A stretch of 60,687 bases of DNA from Acidimicrobiales bacterium (GTDB lineage: Bacteria > Actinomycetota > Acidimicrobiia > Acidimicrobiales > JAHWLA01), in NCBI GenBank assembly GCA_035536915.1, contig DATLNE010000043.1, positions 1 through 60,687 on the forward strand. The letters run 5' to 3'. Below the pieces are notes generated by a model. The model was not told where the DNA came from. It saw only the letters and a program-made list of their open reading frames with translations, and did not search any database. The translations under genes and the position numbers were made by a program. This document shows, piece by piece, positions 49,386 through 60,687 of the stretch (the stretch's first letter is position 1; each line of letters starts with the position of its first letter).

Positions 49386-50309
49386 CTACCGGTAGCGGGC
49401 CAGCACCCGGGTGGCAGCGGCCGCCGCCACGCCCTCGGCCCCTTGGCGCACGGTGGCTCGCGGGCCGAGGCGCAGCAGCAGTCGTTCCAGCCACGCCTGC
49501 TCGCTCACCCGCAAGGTGACGGTGTCGCCTTCCACCTTCTCGGCCGGGTACTGCTCGATGACCCAGCGGGCTTCGGGGGCCAGTGCGAGGACCACCACGG
49601 GGTCGTCGGGCCGGGGGTGGTAGACGGCGCTGGTCGGGGCGTCGGCGGGCGGGTCGAAGGTCTCGTCGAGCAGGACCGGGTTGCGCATGCGGTCGACCCG
49701 GAACATGCGCTCGCCGTCCGCGTCGTGCGACCAGGCGGGCACGTACCACTGCCCGGCTTGGCTGAACACCCGGTAGGGGTCGATGACCCGGCGGGCCCAG
49801 CGGTCCTTGCCGTAGGAGTAGTAGTCGACCTCGACGCGGCGACGTTGGGCGGCCGCCTCGCGCAACGTGGCCAGCACGTCGGCCGGTGCCTCCCCCAGCT
49901 CGACCTCGACGGCTTCGTCGGGGTCGACGCCGAGCACGGCGGCCAGCTTGTCGAGGCCTCGGGCCAGCGGGCCTTCGGGGTCGGTGCCGGGCTCGCTCAA
50001 CAGGGCGCTGCCTGCGGCGACCAGGGCCAGGCCCTCGGCCGGGGTCAGGCGCAACGGCCGGGCGAACCATTCGGCGTAGCGGATCCACACCCGTCCCTCG
50101 GCCACGTCGACTTCCATGAGCGTGTCGGGCGTGAAGGGGTGGACGCCGCACACGAAGAGCAGGTCGAGGTCGGCCAGCAGCTCGCGTTCGGTGCAGTCGA
50201 AGCGGGTGCAGACCTCTTCGACGGTGGGGCCGTCCTGCGACGCCACCCACGGCACCAAGGCCAGCAGCCGCCGCAGGCGCTCGTCGGCCGTCGCTCCCTT
50301 GGGGCTCAT
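49386..50309 (-). CDS. pafC: WYL-domain transcriptional regulator PafC
   Basis: 307 residues. A winged-helix N-terminus (about 5-70, RRLLALVPWVASQDGPTVEE) is followed by a WYL ligand-sensing domain (about 150-215, with DPYRVFSQAGQWYVPAW) and the WYL C-terminal extension. Paired with the adjacent WYL gene it matches PafB/PafC, which in mycobacteria form a heterodimer that activates the LexA-independent DNA-damage response. ATG overlaps the pafB stop by four bases. Confidence 0.9.
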   Translation of the reverse strand: MSPKGATADERLRRLLALVPWVASQDGPTVEEVCTRFDCTERELLADLDLLFVCGVHPFTPDTLMEVDVAEGRVWIRYAEWFARPLRLTPAEGLALVAAGSALLSEPGTDPEGPLARGLDKLAAVLGVDPDEAVEVELGEAPADVLATLREAAAQRRRVEVDYYSYGKDRWARRVIDPYRVFSQAGQWYVPAWSHDADGERMFRVDRMRNPVLLDETFDPPADAPTSAVYHPRPDDPVVVLALAPEARWVIEQYPAEKVEGDTVTLRVSEQAWLERLLLRLGPRATVRQGAEGVAAAAATRVLARYR

Positions 50310-51211
50310 ACGGCTTGCAACCAGGCGATCATGTCGTCGCGCAGGTCGGGCGAGGCGAGGACTTCGGCGTGGTCGAGGAAGCCGAGCACGAACGTGCGGA
50401 AGGCGTCGGTGTTGGTGACCCGCAACTCGACGACCACCGAGCCGTCGTCGCCGCGTTCGACCACGGCGTCGGCGCCCACCTTGGCCTCGGCCCACATGGC
50501 TTGTTCGACGTCGACCCACACCCGGGCCGTGCGCTCGTCCTCCTCCCCCATCTCCCACGGGTGCACCGGGCGGGTGGCCGGGGTGGACGGGCGTTCGAAG
50601 GCCTTGGGCTCGCCCGCCAGCGGCGCCGACTCGAAGCGGTCGAGGCGGAACGAACGCTCGCTCCCCTTGTCGCGGTCGAAGCCCGCCAGGTACCAGAACC
50701 CGTTGCGGTAGGCGAGGCGATAGGGGTCGACGGTCCGTTCGCTCCCCCGGTAGGCGAAGCGCACGGTGCGCCGCTCGCTCACCGCGCCGAAAAGGACAGG
50801 CAGGTGCTCGTTGCCTTCCAGGGCGGCGGCGGCCACGGCATCGACGTCGGCCGAGCCGCCCAGCTTCCAGATGGCGGCCTGGCTCTCCGAGCCTTCGAGA
50901 CGCACGGTGGAGGCAGCCAGGTGCAAGGCCGCCAGCTCGTCGGCGGTGAGGTCGGGGTCGGGCAGCTCGTACTGCTCACGGGGGATGCGGTAGCCGTCGC
51001 CCAGGGTGGGCTCCTCGGGGTCGAGCACCTCCACGGTGATGGGGATGCCCATGGCCCGCAGCGCTTCCTTGTCGCGTTCGAAGGCGCGACGCGCGGCCTG
51101 TTCGTTGTCGTCGTAGCCGGGCACGAGCACGGTGAGCTCGTGGCGCGACAAGGGACGGTCGGCATCGAGCAGGGCGGCCACCAGGTTGATCAGCCGCTCC
51201 AGGCGGTTCAC
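50306..51211 (-). CDS. pafB: WYL-domain transcriptional regulator PafB
   Basis: 301 residues. Helix-turn-helix at the N-terminus (RLERLINLVAALLDADRPLS then RHELTVLVPGY), WYL domain with DPYRLAYRNGFWYLAGFDRD, and a C-terminal extension. GTG start at 51211 overlaps the previous stop (GTGA). Same order as mycobacterial pafB-pafC, but three extra genes separate it from pafA here. Partner of the following gene as a DNA-damage regulator (family knowledge). Confidence 0.9.
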   Translation of the reverse strand: MNRLERLINLVAALLDADRPLSRHELTVLVPGYDDNEQAARRAFERDKEALRAMGIPITVEVLDPEEPTLGDGYRIPREQYELPDPDLTADELAALHLAASTVRLEGSESQAAIWKLGGSADVDAVAAAALEGNEHLPVLFGAVSERRTVRFAYRGSERTVDPYRLAYRNGFWYLAGFDRDKGSERSFRLDRFESAPLAGEPKAFERPSTPATRPVHPWEMGEEDERTARVWVDVEQAMWAEAKVGADAVVERGDDGSVVVELRVTNTDAFRTFVLGFLDHAEVLASPDLRDDMIAWLQAV

Positions 51212-52119
51212 GAGGTCGACATTACCGAGCGCGCCGCGGCCACCCCGGCGGCGGCCGCATAGGCGAAGAAGCCGGGGTCGTCGGCCGCGCTGCGGCCCAT
51301 GGTCGTGGCGGTGATGTCGAGTTCGGGCCCGTCGTCGGGCACGGGCATCAGCGGCGTTGCCTGCACGAGCTCGAGCACCGTGGTGGTGTGGTGGCTCATC
51401 CCGCGGTGCCGTTCCCTGGGGTCGGCGTCGCTGTAGCGGGGAGCGAGGATGGCCAGGCCACCCAGGGCGTGCACGAGGTCGACTGTGGCCGCCACGTCCA
51501 GGCTGCTGAAGCCGTAGGTGGTGTCGGTGCCCACCACGCCGGGGCCGGGGCCGACCACGACGGCGTCGGCGTCTGTGCCCACCAGCGCCGAGGCCACGTT
51601 CACTGCTTCGAGGTCGCCGCCGAAGGCCTGGCCCGCGGTGACCGTCACGTCGAAGAGGCCGTCGGCCACCAGGTCGGAGAGGGCCAAGGGCAACGCCGCG
51701 GTGTCGGTCATGACGTAGGCCAGGCGCTTGCCCGGCGCGCCGTGGCGAAAGGCTGCGGCCACCGCGGCCAGTTGGCTGTGCAGGAAGCAGGCCACCACCG
51801 GCTTGCCGTCGAGTGACCCCTCGCCCTCGACCACAGCCACGTCGGCCTGGAGGCTGGTGTAGCGCAGCTTGAGGATGTGGCCCGCGCCGGGGTTGTCCCA
51901 TTCCCGCCGCGACAGGTTCCAGTGCACGACGTCCCAGCCGCCCGTGCCGAGGCCCAGGTCGACGGCGGTGGCGTTCACGACCACCTCATCGCCCACCGCG
52001 ACGGGGCCCAGGAGCTCGGTGAGCACGTAGGCGCGCCTGCCGTTGTCGAGGGCGATCCGTTGCAGCCCTGGCCGTTCGAGGAGGAGCTCGGCGACGCTCG
52101 CCGTGGTGAAGCGCGGCAC
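51208..52119 (-). CDS. DUF3866 family protein
   Basis: 303 residues resembling DUF3866, an uncharacterised actinobacterial family. Visible: GHILKLRYTSLQADVAVVEG, GKPVVACFLHSQLAAVAAAF, RLAYVMTDTAALPLALSDLV and VVVGPGPGVVGTDTTYGFSS. No membrane segment or signal peptide. GTG start overlaps the preceding methyltransferase stop by one base (TAGTG) and the stop overlaps pafB (GTGA), so it is firmly embedded in the paf transcript. Confidence 0.8.
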   Translation of the reverse strand: MPRFTTASVAELLLERPGLQRIALDNGRRAYVLTELLGPVAVGDEVVVNATAVDLGLGTGGWDVVHWNLSRREWDNPGAGHILKLRYTSLQADVAVVEGEGSLDGKPVVACFLHSQLAAVAAAFRHGAPGKRLAYVMTDTAALPLALSDLVADGLFDVTVTAGQAFGGDLEAVNVASALVGTDADAVVVGPGPGVVGTDTTYGFSSLDVAATVDLVHALGGLAILAPRYSDADPRERHRGMSHHTTTVLELVQATPLMPVPDDGPELDITATTMGRSAADDPGFFAYAAAAGVAAARSVMSTS

Positions 52120-52919: not shown

Positions 52920-53698
52920 GGTTTCGCCCCCACGATTGTGAACTGCGAAACGTAGACCACGCCGCGCGGGACGCGCTCGGTGAGGGCCTTGTCCCAACGG
53001 GCGATGTCGTCCTCGGTGCACACGCCCGCGGCCAGCATCGCTTGGCGGCCTGCCCACGACGGCGGCCGCACGTCGGTGGACAACGGGAAGGCGTCGAAGC
53101 GAGCCTGGCGGTGCACCACCTCGAAGCCCGCGTCGCCCGCGTAGCGGCCCAGGTGGGGGCCGACGGCCAGGTCGTTGCCCATCGACTCGATGAAGCGCCA
53201 GTAGCGCTCGTCCATGTCGGCGACGTCGGGCTCGATGTCGTACTCGGTGATGTGTGTATCCGCCCACGTCTCGTTGAGGTAGACGTGCCCGCCGGAGCGC
53301 AGCAGGTCGGCGGCATGGCGCAGGATCTCGCCGATGCGGGGGCCGTTGTGGAGGAGCACGTGGCGCATGTGCACGATGTCCCACTCCCCCTCCGGCAAGC
53401 CGGTGGCCGCCGCATCGCCGGCGCGGATCTCGACGTGGGGGTGGTCGGCGGCGAGGGCGGCGGCCGTCTCCCGTGCTTCCTCCGATTGGTCGACGCCCAC
53501 CACTCGGCCTTCGGGGCCGACGGCTTCGGCCAGCTGCAGGAGCGGGAGGCCGGGGCCGCAGCCGACATCGACGATGCGGGCCCCGGGGCCGATGCCCGCG
53601 GCCTGCCACGACGGCTGTTCGGCGGCGCGGGCGTGGGTGGCCATCATGCGGTAGCGGTTGAGCTCGTGCTCGTTGAGGCGAAGCGTGTAGCCGCTCAC
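52916..53698 (-). CDS. SAM-dependent methyltransferase (paralogue 1)
   Basis: 260-residue class I methyltransferase with SAM motif [20 protein letters not shown] and the second acidic residue in [12 protein letters not shown] start at 53698 overlaps the pafA stop by four bases, so it is translated in direct coupling with the Pup ligase. Mycobacterial paf clusters have no such gene between pafA and pafB. A small-molecule substrate is more likely than protein, judged only from the C-terminal layout. Confidence 0.9.
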
Positions 53699-55053
53699 AG
53701 CGAAGCGATGAGTTTCTCGACCCGCTCGTCGCGGGATTTGAACGGGTCCTTGCACAGCACGGTGCGCTGGGCCTGGTCGTTGAGCTTGAGGTGCACCCAG
53801 TCGACGGTGAAGTCGCGGCGGCGTTCCTTGGCCCGGCGGATGAACTCGCCCCGCAGCTTGGCCCGGGTCGTCTGCGGCGGGGTGTCCATGGCCGTCTCGA
53901 TGGTCTCGTCGTCGCACATGCGCTCGACCATGCCCCGTTCCTGCATGCGGTAGAAGAGGCCGCGGTCGCGTGACACGTCGTGGTACTGCAGGTCCATGAG
54001 GGCGACCTTGGGATGCGTCAGCGGCACGCCGTGGCGCTCGCGGTAGCCCTCGATGAGCCGATGCTTGATGACCCAGTCGCACTCGCGGTCGAGCTTCATG
54101 GGGTCGTTCTCCAACTGGGTCAGGCAGTGCTCCCACATTGTGAGGGCTTGTTCCTCGAGGGGGCTGAGGCCCTTCTGGGCGTGGTACTTCTGGGCCCGCT
54201 GGAGGTACTCGGCCTGGATCTCCAGAGCGCTGGCCTCGCGGCCGTTGGCCAGCCGCACCCGGCGCTTGCACGTCGTGTCGTGGCTGATTTCGCGGATGGC
54301 GCGGATGGGGTTCTCCAACGTCATGTCGCGTAGGACCACGCTGGGGTCTTCGAGCATGCGCAGGAGGATGGACGTGGCGCCCACCTTGAGGAAGGTGGCG
54401 TACTCGCTCATGTTGGAGTCGCCCACGATGACGTGGAGGCGGCGGAAGCGCTCGGCATCGGCGTGGGGTTCGTCGCGGGTGTTGATGATGGGACGGCTCC
54501 GGGTGGTCGCCGAGGAGACGCCTTCCCAGATGTGCTCGGCCCGTTGGCTGATGCAGTACATGGCGCCGCGAGCCGTCTGCAGGACCTTGCCCGCACCCGC
54601 GTAGATCTGGCGGGAGACGAAGAACGGGATGAGGACTTCGGCGTAGTGGCCGAAGTCGTCGCGCCGGCTGGTGAGGTAGTTCTCGTGGCAGCCGTAGGAG
54701 TTGCCCGCCGAGTCGGTGTTGTTCTTGAACAGGTAGATGACCCCGCGGATGCCTTCTTCCCGCAGGCGCTGCTCGGCGCTGAGCAGGAGGTGTTCGAGGA
54801 TGCGCTCGCCTGCCTTGTCGTGCACGACGAGGTCGAGGATGGAGTCGCACTCGGGGGTGGCGTACTCGGGGTGGCTGCCCACGTCGAGGTAGAGGCGGGC
54901 GCCGTTTTCGAGGAACACGTTGCTGCTGCGTCCCCAGCTCACGACACGGCGGAAGAGGTACCGGGCCACCTCGTCGGGGCTCAGGCGGCGCTGGCCTCGA
55001 AGCGTGCAGGTGACGCCGTACTCGTTTTCGAGGCCGAAGATGCGTCGATCCAT
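53695..55053 (-). CDS. pafA: Pup-protein ligase PafA
   Basis: 452-residue glutamine-synthetase-fold ligase that joins the C-terminal glutamate of Pup to lysines of target proteins. E9 in [12 protein letters not shown] and D57 in [19 protein letters not shown] are the expected catalytic residues. The signature [18 protein letters not shown] and [20 protein letters not shown] are clear. It lacks the Dop loop, which separates it from Dop in this same window. ATG start. Confidence 0.97.
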
Positions 55054-55298: not shown

Positions 55299-55982
55299 TC
55301 AGCCGAGCAGGGTGGCCAGCTCGTCGTCCTCGACGCGGCGGAAGGACCGGCGGGCGTCCTTGGTGCTGCGTTCCAGCACCGCCACTTCGAGGTCCTTGGG
55401 CTCCAACGTGCGTTCTGGGCCGGCCAGCGACTTCACCGCCGCCTGCACCGCGGAGGGCAGGTTCCAGCCCGCTTGGTAGGCGGACTCCATGCGAGCGGTG
55501 ATGGCGTCGGCCTCGCCGCCGAGCACGGTGAAGCGGTCCTCGTCGAACACGGTGCCGTCGTAGAGGATGTGGAAGAGCTGGTCGTCGTCGGCGTGCGGCG
55601 TGACCTCGGCGACGAGGATCTCCACCTCCATGGGCTTCATGTCGTGGGTGAAAATCTGGCCCAGGTGGCGGGCGTAGAGGTTGGCCAGGCTGCGGGCGTC
55701 GACGTCTTCCCGGCTGTACTGGTAGCCCTTGACGTCGGCGTGTTGGACGCCTGCCACCCGCAGCTGGTCGAACTCGTTGTACTTGCCGACGCCCGCGAAG
55801 GCGATGCGGTCGTAGATCTCGCTCACCTTGTGGAGGGTGTGGCTGGGGTTCTCGGCGGCGATGAGCACGCCGTCGTCGTAGAGGGTGCCGACCAGGGCGC
55901 GGCCGCGGGCGATGCCCTTGCGCGCGTAGTCGGCCTTGTCCTTCATGAACTGCTCGGGCGCGACGTAGAACGGCATGCTCAT
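55299..55982 (-). CDS. prcA: Proteasome alpha subunit
   Basis: 227 residues. The alpha-type N-terminus (YVAPEQFMKDKADYARKGIA, RGRALVG) forms the gate of the 20S core and lacks the catalytic Thr; the family segment GVLIAAENPSHTLHKVSEIY is present. ATG at 55982. A 160-bp gap with a GC-rich palindromic element separates it from prcB, which is longer than the usual near-zero spacing. Stop one base from the plus-strand DUF2007-like gene. Confidence 0.96.
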   Translation of the reverse strand: MSMPFYVAPEQFMKDKADYARKGIARGRALVGTLYDDGVLIAAENPSHTLHKVSEIYDRIAFAGVGKYNEFDQLRVAGVQHADVKGYQYSREDVDARSLANLYARHLGQIFTHDMKPMEVEILVAEVTPHADDDQLFHILYDGTVFDEDRFTVLGGEADAITARMESAYQAGWNLPSAVQAAVKSLAGPERTLEPKDLEVAVLERSTKDARRSFRRVEDDELATLLG

Positions 55983-56142: not shown

Positions 56143-56943
56143 TCACCTGTTCAACCCCTGTTCGGTCTTGCGGGCAATCAAGGCGGCGAAGCGCTCGGCC
56201 ACCTCGGCATCCGGCACGCTCTCGTAGCCCCGCTCGGTGATGGTGGCCACCGTGGGGTAGATGCCGCGCACGGCGTCGGGGCCACCGGTGGCGCTGTCTT
56301 CGTCGGCCGCCTCGTAGAGGCCTTGCACGGCCAGCTCGATGGCAGTGTTGTGGTCGAGGTTCTCGCGCCACTGCATCTTCACCGCGGTGCGGGCGTCGCG
56401 GCCGCCGGAGCCGTCGGCGTGGAAGTCGCTCTCTTCGTAGCGGCCGCCCGTGACGTCGTAGGTGAAGATGCGTCCTTGGCGGCGGCGCAGGTCGTAGCCC
56501 GCGAACAGGGGGATGACGGCGAGGCCCTGCATGGCGCTGGGCAGGTTCTGGCGCACCATCTGGGCCAGTTGGTTGGCCTTGCCCTCCAGGCTCAGCGCCG
56601 CGCCTTCGACCTTTTCGTAGTGCTCCAGTTGGAGCTGGAAGAGCTTGACCATCTCCAGGGCGAAGCCCGCGGCGCCCGCGATGGCCACGCCGCTGTGGCG
56701 GTCGGCCGGGTGCACCTTGTCCATGGCCCGGTGGGCGATGCTGCTGCCTGCGGTGGCCCGCCGGTCGCCCGCCATGACCACGCCGTCGGCGTAGCGCAGG
56801 GCGACGATGGTGGTGCCGTGCGTGATGGTGAGGTTGCCGGGGGCGTCGAGGGTGACCTCGGGAAGGCCGAGGCCGAGCTTGGAGAGGAGGCCCACGAAGT
56901 TGGGCCCGGGGTCCTCGTCGGGCTTGAAGAGCGGAAGCGTCAT
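56143..56943 (-). CDS. prcB: Proteasome beta subunit
   Basis: 266-residue precursor. The propeptide ends at NLTITHG, and mature protein starts at catalytic T44 in the string TTIVALRYADGVVMAGDRRA, with the conserved D and K17-equivalent region following. ATG at 56943 (MTLPLFKPDEDPG). It follows the HNH endonuclease gene by 14 bp, so it may now depend on a promoter that includes the SOS box. Forms the inner rings of the 20S core. Confidence 0.97.
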   Translation of the reverse strand: MTLPLFKPDEDPGPNFVGLLSKLGLGLPEVTLDAPGNLTITHGTTIVALRYADGVVMAGDRRATAGSSIAHRAMDKVHPADRHSGVAIAGAAGFALEMVKLFQLQLEHYEKVEGAALSLEGKANQLAQMVRQNLPSAMQGLAVIPLFAGYDLRRRQGRIFTYDVTGGRYEESDFHADGSGGRDARTAVKMQWRENLDHNTAIELAVQGLYEAADEDSATGGPDAVRGIYPTVATITERGYESVPDAEVAERFAALIARKTEQGLNR

Positions 56944-56957
56944 GTCGACGCCGGAGG

Positions 56958-57512
56958 CTAGCGGCTGTGCTCGGCTACCAGTGCTGCCACCCGCTGTGTC
57001 GCACGTTGGCGGGCTTCGGGGTCGAACACCACGTAGTCGGCGGCCCGCAGGAGCAGGACGGCGTCGTCTTCGAAGTCGCCCAGGGCGTTGTTGCACCGGA
57101 AGCACAACAGGCCCCGCACTCGGCCCGTGCCGTGCTCGTGGTCGACGTGGAGGGAGATGTCGTCACGCGGCGGCCGCTCGCAGATGCCGCACACGCCCTC
57201 TTGGGCGGCGAGCATCTCGTCGTATGTCTCCAGCGTGATCCCGAACTTCCGCCGCAGGTGCCCGGCTCGGTCCTTGGCCTTCACCTCCGGCCGTGTGCGC
57301 CGCTCCCGCTGATACGCCCGGACACGCTCGGGGTTCGCTTGCTGCCAAGCCTTCGCCCGGGCGATGGCTTGCTCCCGTACTTGTGGATACCGGGCCTTAG
57401 CTCGGACTTGGAAGCACCGCTTGCAGTCACCGCGGTAGCCGTCTCGGGCACTGGCCTCTCGGTAAAACTCCGTGAGCGGGAGCTCTTCCCCACATTTCGA
57501 GCATCGCTTCAT
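56958..57512 (-). CDS. HNH endonuclease (endonuclease VII-like), SOS-box controlled
   Basis: 184 residues. N-terminal zinc finger with C4, C7, C30 and C33 (RCSKCGEE, GDCKRCFQ), a helical linker, and a C-terminal HNH domain with C108, C111 (EGVCGICERPP), D124-H125-H127 (HVDHEHGTG), and C137, C140, N141 (LLCFRCNNALGD), matching recombination endonuclease VII. All metal and catalytic residues are present. Codon use is less GC-biased than neighbours, and it stands between pup and prcB, where actinobacteria normally have nothing, so it looks acquired. The ATG at 57512 lies 12 bp after a LexA palindrome. Confidence 0.92.
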   Translation of the reverse strand: MKRCSKCGEELPLTEFYREASARDGYRGDCKRCFQVRAKARYPQVREQAIARAKAWQQANPERVRAYQRERRTRPEVKAKDRAGHLRRKFGITLETYDEMLAAQEGVCGICERPPRDDISLHVDHEHGTGRVRGLLCFRCNNALGDFEDDAVLLLRAADYVVFDPEARQRATQRVAALVAEHSR

Positions 57513-57518
57513 GCTCTG

Positions 57519-57548
57519 ATGGTATCGAACATATGTTCGACGTGTCAA
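57519..57548 (-). promoter_or_regulatory. Promoter of the HNH gene (-35 TTGACA, -10 TACCAT)
   Basis: On the minus strand TTGACA (57548-57543) and TACCAT (57524-57519) are 18 bp apart. Transcription would start about 6-7 bp downstream, at or next to the ATG at 57512, giving a leaderless mRNA. The LexA-type palindrome occupies the spacer, so repressor binding would block polymerase. Confidence 0.65.
57525..57540. promoter_or_regulatory. LexA/SOS box, perfect palindrome
   Basis: TCGAACATATGTTCGA is a perfect 16-bp palindrome that fits the Gram-positive and actinobacterial LexA consensus CGAAC-N4-GTTCG with both half-sites exact. It lies between the -35 and -10 boxes of the HNH endonuclease gene, 12 bp before the start codon. 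The lexA gene is not in the window. Confidence 0.85.
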
Positions 57549-57564
57549 CACTTGTACGAAAGGC

Positions 57565-57762
57565 CTACTGACCGCCCTTTTGTACATAGGACCTCACGAA
57601 GTCCTCTGCGTTCTCCTCAAGCACCTCGTCAATTTCGTCCAGGAGATCGTCGAGTTCTTCCTTGAGCTTCTCGCCCTTGTCGGACGTCGCGGGCGCGGCC
57701 TCCTCGACGGCCTCGTCCTCGCGGGTGGTGGTCTGCTTCTTCTTCAGCTCTCGTTCTGCCAT
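57565..57762 (-). CDS. pup: Prokaryotic ubiquitin-like protein Pup
   Basis: 65 residues. Disordered acidic protein with coiled-coil central part (KGEKLKEELDDLLDEIDEVL) and C-terminus YVQKGGQ. The final residue is Gln, so Dop must deamidate it to Glu before ligation. AGGAGG overlaps the dop stop codon and lies 10 bp before the ATG, coupling pup to dop. Bound by Mpa and attached to substrates by PafA. Confidence 0.97.
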   Translation of the reverse strand: MAERELKKKQTTTREDEAVEEAAPATSDKGEKLKEELDDLLDEIDEVLEENAEDFVRSYVQKGGQ

Positions 57763-57777
57763 GACGGTGACTGCCTC

Positions 57778-59268
57778 CTAGGAGCCCAAACGCTCCAACA
57801 ACTCGGATGGGCTCGAACATCCCTCCAACAACCTATCGACCATCGCAGCCGTACCTCTGAGCGGTTCCATCATCGGCACCCGGCGCAGGGGGTCGGTACC
57901 CAGGTCGAACACCAGCGAGTCCCAGTTGGCCGCGGCGATCGACGACGCCCACTTCTGCAGGCACTTGCCCCGGAAGTAGGCCCGGGTGTCTGTGGGGGGC
58001 TCGGTAATGGCGTCGATCACCTCGTCCTCGGTCACCAGCCGCTCCATGGGCAGCCGCCCGAACAGCGACCGCTCGGGCCGCACGTCGTGGTACTGCAGGT
58101 CCATGGCCGCCAGCTTGTGGTCGCTCCACGACAACCCGTGGCGCTCGCGGTAGCCCTCGAGCAGCCGGTACTTGGCCACCCAGTCGAGCTGGTTGGCCAA
58201 CGACATGGGGTCGGACTCCAGGCCGGTGAGCACCTGCTCCCACCGCTCCATCACCATGGCGCCTACCGACTCCCCCACCGACTCCAAGCCGTGGGCGTCG
58301 ACGTACTTCTGGGCCAGGTTGAAGTACTCCCACTGGACCTGCAGGGCCGTCATGGACGACCCGTCGGCCAGCGCCAGCGGCTTGCGCAGCGACACGTCGT
58401 AGGACACCGCCCGCATCGACGCCACCGGCGTGGCCAACGTGAAGTCGCGGGCGCCGAGCCAGTCGTCCTCGATCATCGACAGCACGATGGCGGTGACGCC
58501 CACCTTCAGGAACGTCGAGATCTCGGCCAGGTTGGCGTCGCCCGCGATGACGTGGAGCCGCCGGTACTTCTGGGCATCGGCGTGGGGCTCGTCGCGGGTG
58601 TTGACGATGGGCCGCTTGAGGGTGGTCTCCAGCCCCACCTCTTCTTCGAAGAAGTCGGCCCGCTGCGTCAGTTGGAAGGGCACCTCGGCGCTCGTAACCG
58701 ACGTCGACTCGGTGCCCACCTTGCCCGCCCCCGTGTAGATCTGGCGGGTGACGAAGTGGGGCATGACGTGCTGCACGATGCGGCCGAACGGGGCCTGGCG
58801 GTCCATGAGGTAGTTCTCATGGGTGCCGTAGGAGTTGCCCTTGCGGTCGGAGTTGTTCTTGTAGACGACGATGCCCTGGCCGTCGGGCAACGCCCGGGCC
58901 GCCGCCTCCATCGACCGAGCCAGGATGCGCTCGCCCGCCTTGTCGTAGCGCACGATCTCCAAGGGGTCGGCGCACTCCGGCGTGGAGAACTCGGGATGGG
59001 CGTGGTCGACGTAGTAGCGCGCTCCGTTGGTGAGCACGGCATTGACCAGGTGGGTCTCCACCTCGGGTGGCATGGCCCCTTCGCGGGCGAACCCGCGGGC
59101 GTCGTTGCCGGGCGACTCGTCCTCGAAGTCCCAGCCGACCTTGCGTTGGAGCTCGTTGACGTAGGCGTTGATGAGGACCGACGACGCGGCGATGGGGTTG
59201 GAGTCGCCCGCGCCCCGGAGCACGATTCCGTACTCCGTCTCCAGCCCCAACACCTTCCGAATCGCCAC
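57778..59268 (-). CDS. dop: Deamidase/depupylase Dop
   Basis: 496 residues of the carboxylate-amine ligase fold. It deamidates the C-terminal Gln of Pup and also removes Pup from proteins. D88 in RYYVDHAHPEFSTPEC is the expected nucleophile; the Dop-specific loop is about residues 48-65 (FEDESPGNDARGFAR). Other signatures: KNNSDRKGNSYGTHENYL and [23 protein letters not shown] start at 59268. The gap to mpa contains a palindromic element related to that after prcB. Confidence 0.96.
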   Translation of the reverse strand: MAIRKVLGLETEYGIVLRGAGDSNPIAASSVLINAYVNELQRKVGWDFEDESPGNDARGFAREGAMPPEVETHLVNAVLTNGARYYVDHAHPEFSTPECADPLEIVRYDKAGERILARSMEAAARALPDGQGIVVYKNNSDRKGNSYGTHENYLMDRQAPFGRIVQHVMPHFVTRQIYTGAGKVGTESTSVTSAEVPFQLTQRADFFEEEVGLETTLKRPIVNTRDEPHADAQKYRRLHVIAGDANLAEISTFLKVGVTAIVLSMIEDDWLGARDFTLATPVASMRAVSYDVSLRKPLALADGSSMTALQVQWEYFNLAQKYVDAHGLESVGESVGAMVMERWEQVLTGLESDPMSLANQLDWVAKYRLLEGYRERHGLSWSDHKLAAMDLQYHDVRPERSLFGRLPMERLVTEDEVIDAITEPPTDTRAYFRGKCLQKWASSIAAANWDSLVFDLGTDPLRRVPMMEPLRGTAAMVDRLLEGCSSPSELLERLGS

Positions 59269-59409: not shown

Positions 59410-60274
59410 CTAGAGGTACTGCCCCGTTCCCACGCGCTCGATGGCGCGCCCACCGGTGGTCTCCTTGCCCTCCGACATGAGCACCCGCAGGAAGACGATG
59501 CGCTCGCCCTTCTTGCCGGAGATCTTCGCCCAGTCGTCGGGGTTGGTGGAGTTGGGCAGGTCCTCGTGCTCCTTGAACTCCTGGCGGATCGACTCGAGCA
59601 GGTCCTGGGTGCGGATGCCCCGCTCCTGTCCCGCGATCTCGCGCTTGATGGCCAGCTTCTTGGCCCGCCGCACGATGTTCTCGATCATGGCCCCGGACGA
59701 GAAGTCCTTGAAGTACATGACCTCTTTGTCGCCGTTCTGGTACGTCACCTCGATGAACCGGTTGTCGTCGTCGGTGGCGTACATGTCGGCCACGGTGCGC
59801 TCGATCATGGCCTGCACGGCCTTGGCCGGGTCGCCGCCGCCCAACGAGGCGACCTCGCCCGCGTCGAGGGGCAGGTCGGGCTTGAGGTAGCGGGAGAAGA
59901 TCTGGGTGGCCGCCGCCTCGTCGGGCCGCTCCACCTTGATCTTCACGTCGAGGCGACCGGGGCGCAGGATGGCCGGGTCGATGAGGTCCTCACGGTTGGA
60001 GGCACCGATCACGATGTCGTTCTTCAACGTCTCCACGCCGTCGATCTCGGCCAGCAACTGGGGCACGATCGTGGACTCCATGTCGGAGCTGATGCCCGTG
60101 CCTCGGGTGCGGAACAGCGAGTCCATCTCGTCGAAGAAGACGATGACGGGCATGCCTTCCTCGGACTTCTCCCGGGCCCGCTGGAACACCAGGCGGATCT
60201 GGCGCTCGGTCTCGCCGACGTATTTGTTCAGCAGCTCGGGGCCCTTGATGTTCAGGAAGTAGGACCGGGCCGCC
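59410..60274 (-). CDS. mpa: Proteasomal AAA+ ATPase Mpa/ARC, C-terminal part (5' end broken)
   Basis: C-terminal ~288 residues of the ATPase that unfolds pupylated proteins and feeds them to the 20S core. Walker [19 protein letters not shown], sensor-1 [20 protein letters not shown], arginine-finger region and the C-terminal GQYL (the motif that docks in the alpha ring) are intact. Upstream of 60274 the frame runs into an inverted Walker A fragment and then a second, diverged copy of the same segment, so the gene is interrupted here. A complete protein would be near 600 residues. Confidence 0.9.
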
Positions 60275-60360
60275 GGGCTGCGGCAAGACGCTCATCGCCA
60301 AGGCGGTCGCCAACTCCCTCGCCAAGAAGGTCTCCGAGGTGACCGGGATCAAGGGGGCCA
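60264..60360 (+). pseudogene. Inverted Walker A fragment of mpa
   Basis: On the plus strand this piece encodes [16 protein letters not shown] followed by [10 protein letters not shown], the Walker A region of Mpa, in the opposite direction to the surrounding mpa sequence. It differs at many wobble positions from the Walker A copy at the window edge. Its borders coincide with short shared strings (CGGGCCGCC at 60266-60274; GGCCAAGAGCT at 60356-60366), as in fold-back chimeras. Confidence 0.75.
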
Positions 60361-60687
60361 AGAGCTGGGGCACGATCGTCGATTCCATGTCGGAGGAGAT
60401 ACCGGTGCCGCGCGTTCGGAACAGGGAGTCCATCTCGTCGAAGAAGACGATGACGGGCCAACCCTCTTCCGACTTCTCGCGGGCCCGCTGAAACACGAGG
60501 CGGATCTGGCGCTCGGTCTCACCGACGTACTTGTTGAGCAGCTCCGGACCCTTGATGTTGATGAAGTAGCTCTTCGCCGCCTTGTCACCGGTGACGACCG
60601 CGACCTTCTTCGCCAGTGAGTTGGCCACCGCCTTGGCGATGAGCGTCTTGCCACACCCCGGCGGGCCGTACAGGAGGATGCCCTTCG
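60361..60687 (-). pseudogene. Second, diverged mpa segment reaching the window edge
   Basis: Encodes [20 protein letters not shown] through [20 protein letters not shown] to STIVPQLL, i.e. Walker A and Walker B of Mpa. It repeats, with many silent and a few coding changes (EEGWPVI against EEGMPVI), the part present at 60052-60263. It stops abruptly at the inverted fragment. Probably the end of another mpa allele joined to the first during amplification or assembly; a real duplication is less likely. Confidence 0.75.

Follow-up and report, generated by a model that had tools for sequence, protein, structure and literature searches.

A predicted LexA operator in the promoter of an endonuclease VII-type gene between pup and prcB in an Acidimicrobiales bacterium

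Described Systems and the Proteasome Locus

M. tuberculosis has 13E12-family HNH nucleases under LexA control (PMC4181829; PMC8151990), and the refined LexA motif of that organism is MKWMTCGAAMRYWTGTTCGA (PMC4181829). DNA damage control is also linked to the mycobacterial Pup-proteasome locus with its PafBC genes (PMC8223512, PMC5656591). We compared these systems with a 60,687-nucleotide stretch of DNA from an Acidimicrobiales bacterium (hereafter the window; positions 1–60,687 of contig DATLNE010000043.1, assembly GCA_035536915.1). Like the mycobacterial locus, the window holds, all on the minus strand, dop (57778–59268; TIGR03688), pup (57565–57762; PF05639, TIGR03687), prcB for the proteasome beta subunit (56143–56943; TIGR03690), prcA for the alpha subunit (55299–55982; TIGR03691), the Pup ligase gene pafA (53695–55053; TIGR03686), and a pafB-like WYL/WCX gene (50306–51271, start provisional; PF13280, PF25583) that adjoins pafC (49386–50336; PF19187 HTH_PafC, PF13280). 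The PafB/PafC-type genes that an earlier note on this DNA had placed in the locus are thus recovered by family models. A review of the mycobacterial locus names no endonuclease there; in the window such a gene sits between pup and prcB. Near the contig end, within 60049–60581, a 226-nt stretch of an mpa/arc-like AAA ATPase gene is repeated with 85% identity at a spacing of 307, and the same region also contains an 83% inverted repeat; the repeat may have arisen in assembly or reflect a partial duplication.

The gene between pup and prcB (56958–57512, minus strand) encodes a 184-aa protein with an N-terminal CxxC..CxxC region and a C-terminal endonuclease VII (EndoVII) domain of the HNH type. 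Pfam Endonuclease_7 (PF02945) matches the protein at E = 3e-22, with 78.8 bits against a curated cut-off of 23.6; phage EndoVII families, including phrog_2633, match as well, and the genome has no other PF02945 gene. T4 EndoVII (PDB 1e7d, 1en7, 2qnf) is the top sequence match in a profile search (E = 8.7e-11) and also ranks first, with a weak score (E = 4.7e-3; 58 columns, 40% identity), in a structural search with an AlphaFold2 model of the protein (mean pLDDT 88, pTM 0.55; six-sequence alignment). Residues C108, C111, H122, D124, H125, H127, C137, C140, and N141 align with T4 C23, C26, H38, D40, H41, H43, C58, C61, and N62. We take these T4 positions to include the zinc cysteines and the catalytic His, Asp, and Asn residues, so read, the zinc cysteines and the equivalents of D40, H41, H43, and N62 are all present. 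The two proteins differ in that only about 58 residues can be aligned, that the window protein carries the additional N-terminal CxxC..CxxC region, and that its gene is chromosomal and preceded by an SOS box. The 184-aa protein is predicted to be an active nuclease and, by analogy with T4 EndoVII, it probably acts on DNA distorted by branches, mismatches, or other irregularities.

A Predicted LexA-Repressed Promoter

Read on the minus strand, the nuclease gene is preceded by the arrangement TTGACA-CG-TCGAACATATGTTCGA-TACCAT-CAGAGC-ATG, with the ATG at 57512–57510. The earlier note had described TCGAACATATGTTCGA (57525–57540) as a perfect SOS box lying within the promoter spacer, and both parts of that description hold. 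The sequence agrees with the actinobacterial SOS box at every specified base, its core fits the refined M. tuberculosis motif (PMC4181829), it is unique in the window even when up to three mismatches are allowed (0.04 expected), and it occupies 16 bp of the 18-bp spacer that separates a −35-like TTGACA (57543–57548) from a −10-like TACCAT (57519–57524). Several relatives carry TTGACA- or TTGACT-like sequences at the upstream position, and TANNNT is conserved before the nuclease start, ending 5–10 bp from it in 12 of 17 loci against 1.1 expected. The conserved N-terminus, MK(R/K)C..CG, begins at the ATG at 57512 and not at an upstream ATG at 57587. Because TACCAT ends 6 nt from this codon, a leaderless nuclease transcript, as the earlier note had proposed, is plausible, with the transcription start itself a prediction.

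A scan of the genome for the box and for lexA, which the earlier note had suggested, revealed a coherent regulon. The genome encodes a LexA that has both a DNA-binding domain and an S24 peptidase domain; CGAACN4GTTCG occurs 17 times genome-wide compared with 3 for a reversed-pattern control, and TCGAACN4GTTCGA with one mismatch allowed occurs 53 times compared with 5, the 53 including repeated DUF222-HNH genes. The SOS motif precedes lexA (two exact copies and further degenerate ones), recA, uvrA, ruvC, and dnaE2, and is also found at a radical-SAM/SPL-like gene, a UvrC-like exonuclease/GIY-YIG gene, and an Eco57I-type methylase gene. It also lies at a gene judged imuA'-like by inspection, for which Pfam gave no match. 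The operator in the nuclease promoter matches this genomic motif. The parallel with mycobacteria (PMC4181829; PMC8151990) extends to HNH genes under a TCGAACN4GTTCGA box, and this genome too has DUF222-HNH genes with near-consensus boxes, of the TCGTACACATGTTCGA type, at the gene starts. The two kinds of nuclease differ, however, in that the DUF222 plus HNH (PF01844) layout is distinct from EndoVII (PF02945) and that the DUF222-HNH genes observed here lie outside the Pup-proteasome locus.

Many probable copies of these DUF222-HNH (13E12-type) genes with a TCGTACACATGTTCGA-type start box occur on L013, L017, and other contigs of the genome, and a second box-like sequence lies about 453 bp away within the gene. 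Boxes in DUF222-HNH coding sequence (C36:28360, C47:122998) and one on C3 resemble coding-sequence matches and were not taken as operators. At the Eco57I-type methylase gene, a perfect SOS box overlaps the gene start (L014 1553–1568; G000:C44:257552), which suggests possible LexA control of a restriction- or defence-like system.

The gene order dop-pup-nuclease-prcB-prcA recurs within Acidimicrobiales, and the box recurs with it. In ten genomes from four families (f1, f10, f29, f55), a box scoring 9–12 of 12 ends 12–14 bp before the nuclease start and is followed by TANNNT, where the shuffle expectation for the ten sums to about 0.4. All ten encode LexA and carry 2–4 boxes of the same motif at their lexA promoters. 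Across the 19 leaders long enough to be tested (L092 was left out, its start not being established), 11 score at least 9 against 0.84 expected; the script counted L057 among these with a score of 9, but its match lies 50 bp upstream and was judged to be chance. As the box-bearing genomes are kin, the ten sites do not represent ten independent origins. The box is missing or replaced elsewhere: neither a LexA box nor a PafBC-type motif was found before the orthologues G002, G277, G038, G171, and L076, and most nuclease loci outside the order yielded no LexA box. In G038 and G171 the nuclease start abuts pup, and co-transcription with pup is therefore expected. We also found no confident LexA in the assemblies G764 (L038), G288, and G002, for which incomplete assembly may account. 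Pup-prcB junctions without the nuclease, with gaps of 2–183 bp where measured, contained neither a LexA box nor a PafBC-type motif.

The box conserved at orthologues, together with the coherent LexA regulon of the genome, makes LexA control of the nuclease well supported, and we infer that LexA binds this operator and that damage induces the gene. We consider it probable that the locus contains a one-gene, semi-mobile EndoVII-type cassette with its own leaderless, LexA-repressed promoter. In the undamaged cell, a LexA dimer on the box spanning the −35/−10 spacer would exclude RNA polymerase; upon damage, RecA-stimulated self-cleavage of LexA would free the nuclease promoter. The nuclease would then be made along with RecA, RuvC, UvrA, and DnaE2 and could act on branched, mismatched, or distorted DNA. 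Such a cassette would carry its own damage switch, with related cassettes apparently using PafBC instead.

Several other readings of the box were weighed against LexA control. That it is a chance or decayed match to which LexA does not bind could draw on the many one-mismatch near matches in the genome; yet the match is perfect, its position is kept in ten genomes, and the control counts are low, and we rejected this reading, which appears very improbable, on the uniqueness of the box in the window, the control counts, and the shuffle expectation. We likewise consider it very improbable that the palindrome, instead of being a protein site, functions as a hairpin in RNA from the pup-nuclease interval. 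Although the box can pair with itself and its outer bases covary in one relative (GCGAAC..GTTCGC), the GAAC/GTTC core hardly varies and is the same as in the motif found at lexA and recA, a leaderless transcript from this promoter would not include the palindrome, and no T-run follows the palindrome. Another proposal, raised in the earlier note, is that the box serves the proteasome: LexA release would let transcription read through the nuclease gene into prcB and prcA, providing more proteasome during damage. Read-through is physically possible, since the 14 bp between the nuclease stop and prcB leave no room for a terminator, and in mycobacteria RecA is among the damage proteins that the Pup-proteasome system clears as cells recover (PMC8223512). 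Against this stands a −10 element that belongs to prcB itself. Of 42 loci of the order, 30 have a TANNNT ending 5–10 bp ahead of prcB (1.2 expected); the figure for prcA is 0 of 43 and that for pup 2 of 42. The prcB element is kept with or without the nuclease. In the window the corresponding TAGCCT (56955–56960, minus strand) shares bases with the TAG stop codon of the nuclease gene, and its end lies 11 bp from the prcB ATG, slightly beyond the counted range. Since the prcB element persists without the nuclease, and the boxes occur only with it, the damage switch seems to be part of the nuclease cassette and not of prcBA. Read-through control of the proteasome during SOS is hence possible but not favoured; the 14-bp gap that would permit it stands, whereas its claim to be the main role is weakened by the conserved prcB element and we regard it as unlikely. 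A leaderless-type −10 before prcB, TAGCCT or TAACCT, is seen throughout the order (L020–L164).

PafBC-Type Promoters at Other Orthologues

The earlier note had pointed to PafB/PafC as activators of a second damage response, a hint that gained substance when the orthologues without a LexA box were inspected. Five of these (L038, L039, L040, L061, and L094) are preceded by TGTC-N12-TANNNT, against 0.05 expected, and L092 provides a further match that was kept out of the statistics. The −10 element ends 6 nt before the start in L038, L039, and L040 and 9 nt before it in L094, giving leaderless spacing at four of the five loci; in L061 the motif lies 43 nt upstream of the start and is followed by GGAGG. 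Family f29, to which L061 (G219) is assigned, has LexA-box members too, L094 comes from another family of the phylum, and L038–L040 are placed to the level of Actinomycetota/Actinomycetes. The PafBC motif of M. tuberculosis is TGTCGG, TGTCAG, or TGTCAC followed by N10-TA-N3-T (PMC8151990); L038, L039, L061, and L094 match it, and L040 has TGTCGC, outside the three variants. No PafBC motif was found between pup and the nuclease gene in the window. L057 was not counted as a PafBC case, as its TGTCACACCCCCGCATCATGAT has no TA at −10.

The M. smegmatis PafBC motif appeared not to be conserved in S. venezuelae (PMC9380542), while a review extends the RecA-NDp promoter to other Actinobacteria (PMC8223512). 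As a positive control, we inspected recA (L166–L178): of the 13 genomes checked, 11 have upstream of the gene both a LexA box and a TGTCACACCC-like motif carrying TAGGGT or TAGGCT (e.g., TGTCACACCCTCTCCGTAGGGT). The window's own genome is among the 11, with TGTCTCACCCTCTCCGTAGGGT as its PafBC-type sequence at recA. This places evidence for PafBC-type promoters at recA far outside mycobacteria. The promoters of the five nuclease loci are nearly identical to that of recA, and PafBC presumably binds them. Damage control of the nuclease cassette thus appears to have been wired twice, once via LexA and once via PafBC.

Distribution and Apparent Exchange of the Cassette

Among 397 genomes of the order, a nuclease match is present in 29; in 18 of these it falls in this locus, twice as a fragment. 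The placement between pup and prcB also holds for the nuclease outside the order, Streptomyces-like genomes included, and some of these loci have tandem copies. Given the same position across the phylum, we rejected a recent one-off insertion. Between the window and G001, amino acid identity is 95/90% for dop and 92% for prcB compared with 71% for the nuclease, which on these values diverges faster than its neighbours. Within genus g10, the pair G010/G066 shares 90% nucleotide identity in pup and 90% in prcB but 62% in the interval, the identity changing abruptly at the pup stop and again close to the nuclease stop, and the G010 nuclease groups with that of another genus. Replacement of the cassette in place is the simplest reading of this pair, which rapid divergence could also produce. 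Being patchy, fast-evolving, and apparently swapped whole at least once, in genus g10, the cassette suggests a semi-mobile nuclease, its mobility read from these comparisons, rather than a part of the proteasome.

The patchiness and the apparent exchange invite comparison with homing endonucleases. A free-standing homing-type enzyme would cut nuclease-free pup-prcB junctions, with LexA timing its expression to recombination repair; this proposal concerns function and is compatible with LexA control. It would account for patchy presence (those 29 genomes) at one site phylum-wide, for the exchange in G010/G066 and the tandem copies in some loci, and for relatives of the nuclease in 1785 phage records, all below 60% identity. 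Its recognition site and site-specific cutting are hypothetical here, however, and the distances of the nuclease agree in part with those of PrcB (Mantel r = 0.59 overall and 0.37 for the order). T4 EndoVII is structure-selective and not sequence-specific, which also counts against homing. We regard homing as a tentative possibility, on the unlikely side, and retain the semi-mobile, LexA-repressed cassette as our preferred reading.

An extra gene in the Pup-proteasome locus appears to be itself under damage control, by LexA in some lineages and by PafBC in others, a specific instance in which rewiring between the two pathways can be put to the test. A broader interpretation, to which we give an even chance, is that the junction of pup and prcB has long served as a niche for EndoVII cassettes that can be exchanged, with damage-inducible promoters gained separately from two unrelated pathways, LexA repression or PafBC activation. 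If true, a damage-triggered nuclease would be a recurrent yet optional part of the Pup-proteasome operon. In the literature searched, with subscription papers mostly outside it, we found no description of a nuclease between pup and prcB with a damage promoter. There may be an earlier mention of an EndoVII-like gene in the proteasome cluster of Streptomyces, and the pup-nuclease-prcB synteny itself may therefore not be new.

A short TTTCGTACAA-like element follows the pup stop in the window (57551–57560) and in the relatives L021, L022, L053, L057, and L058. Within the order it occurs in most nuclease-bearing loci and was seen in none of the nuclease-free ones. At the corresponding place after the pup stop, Streptomyces-like loci carry a small inverted repeat, CCTTCGAATCGAAGG.
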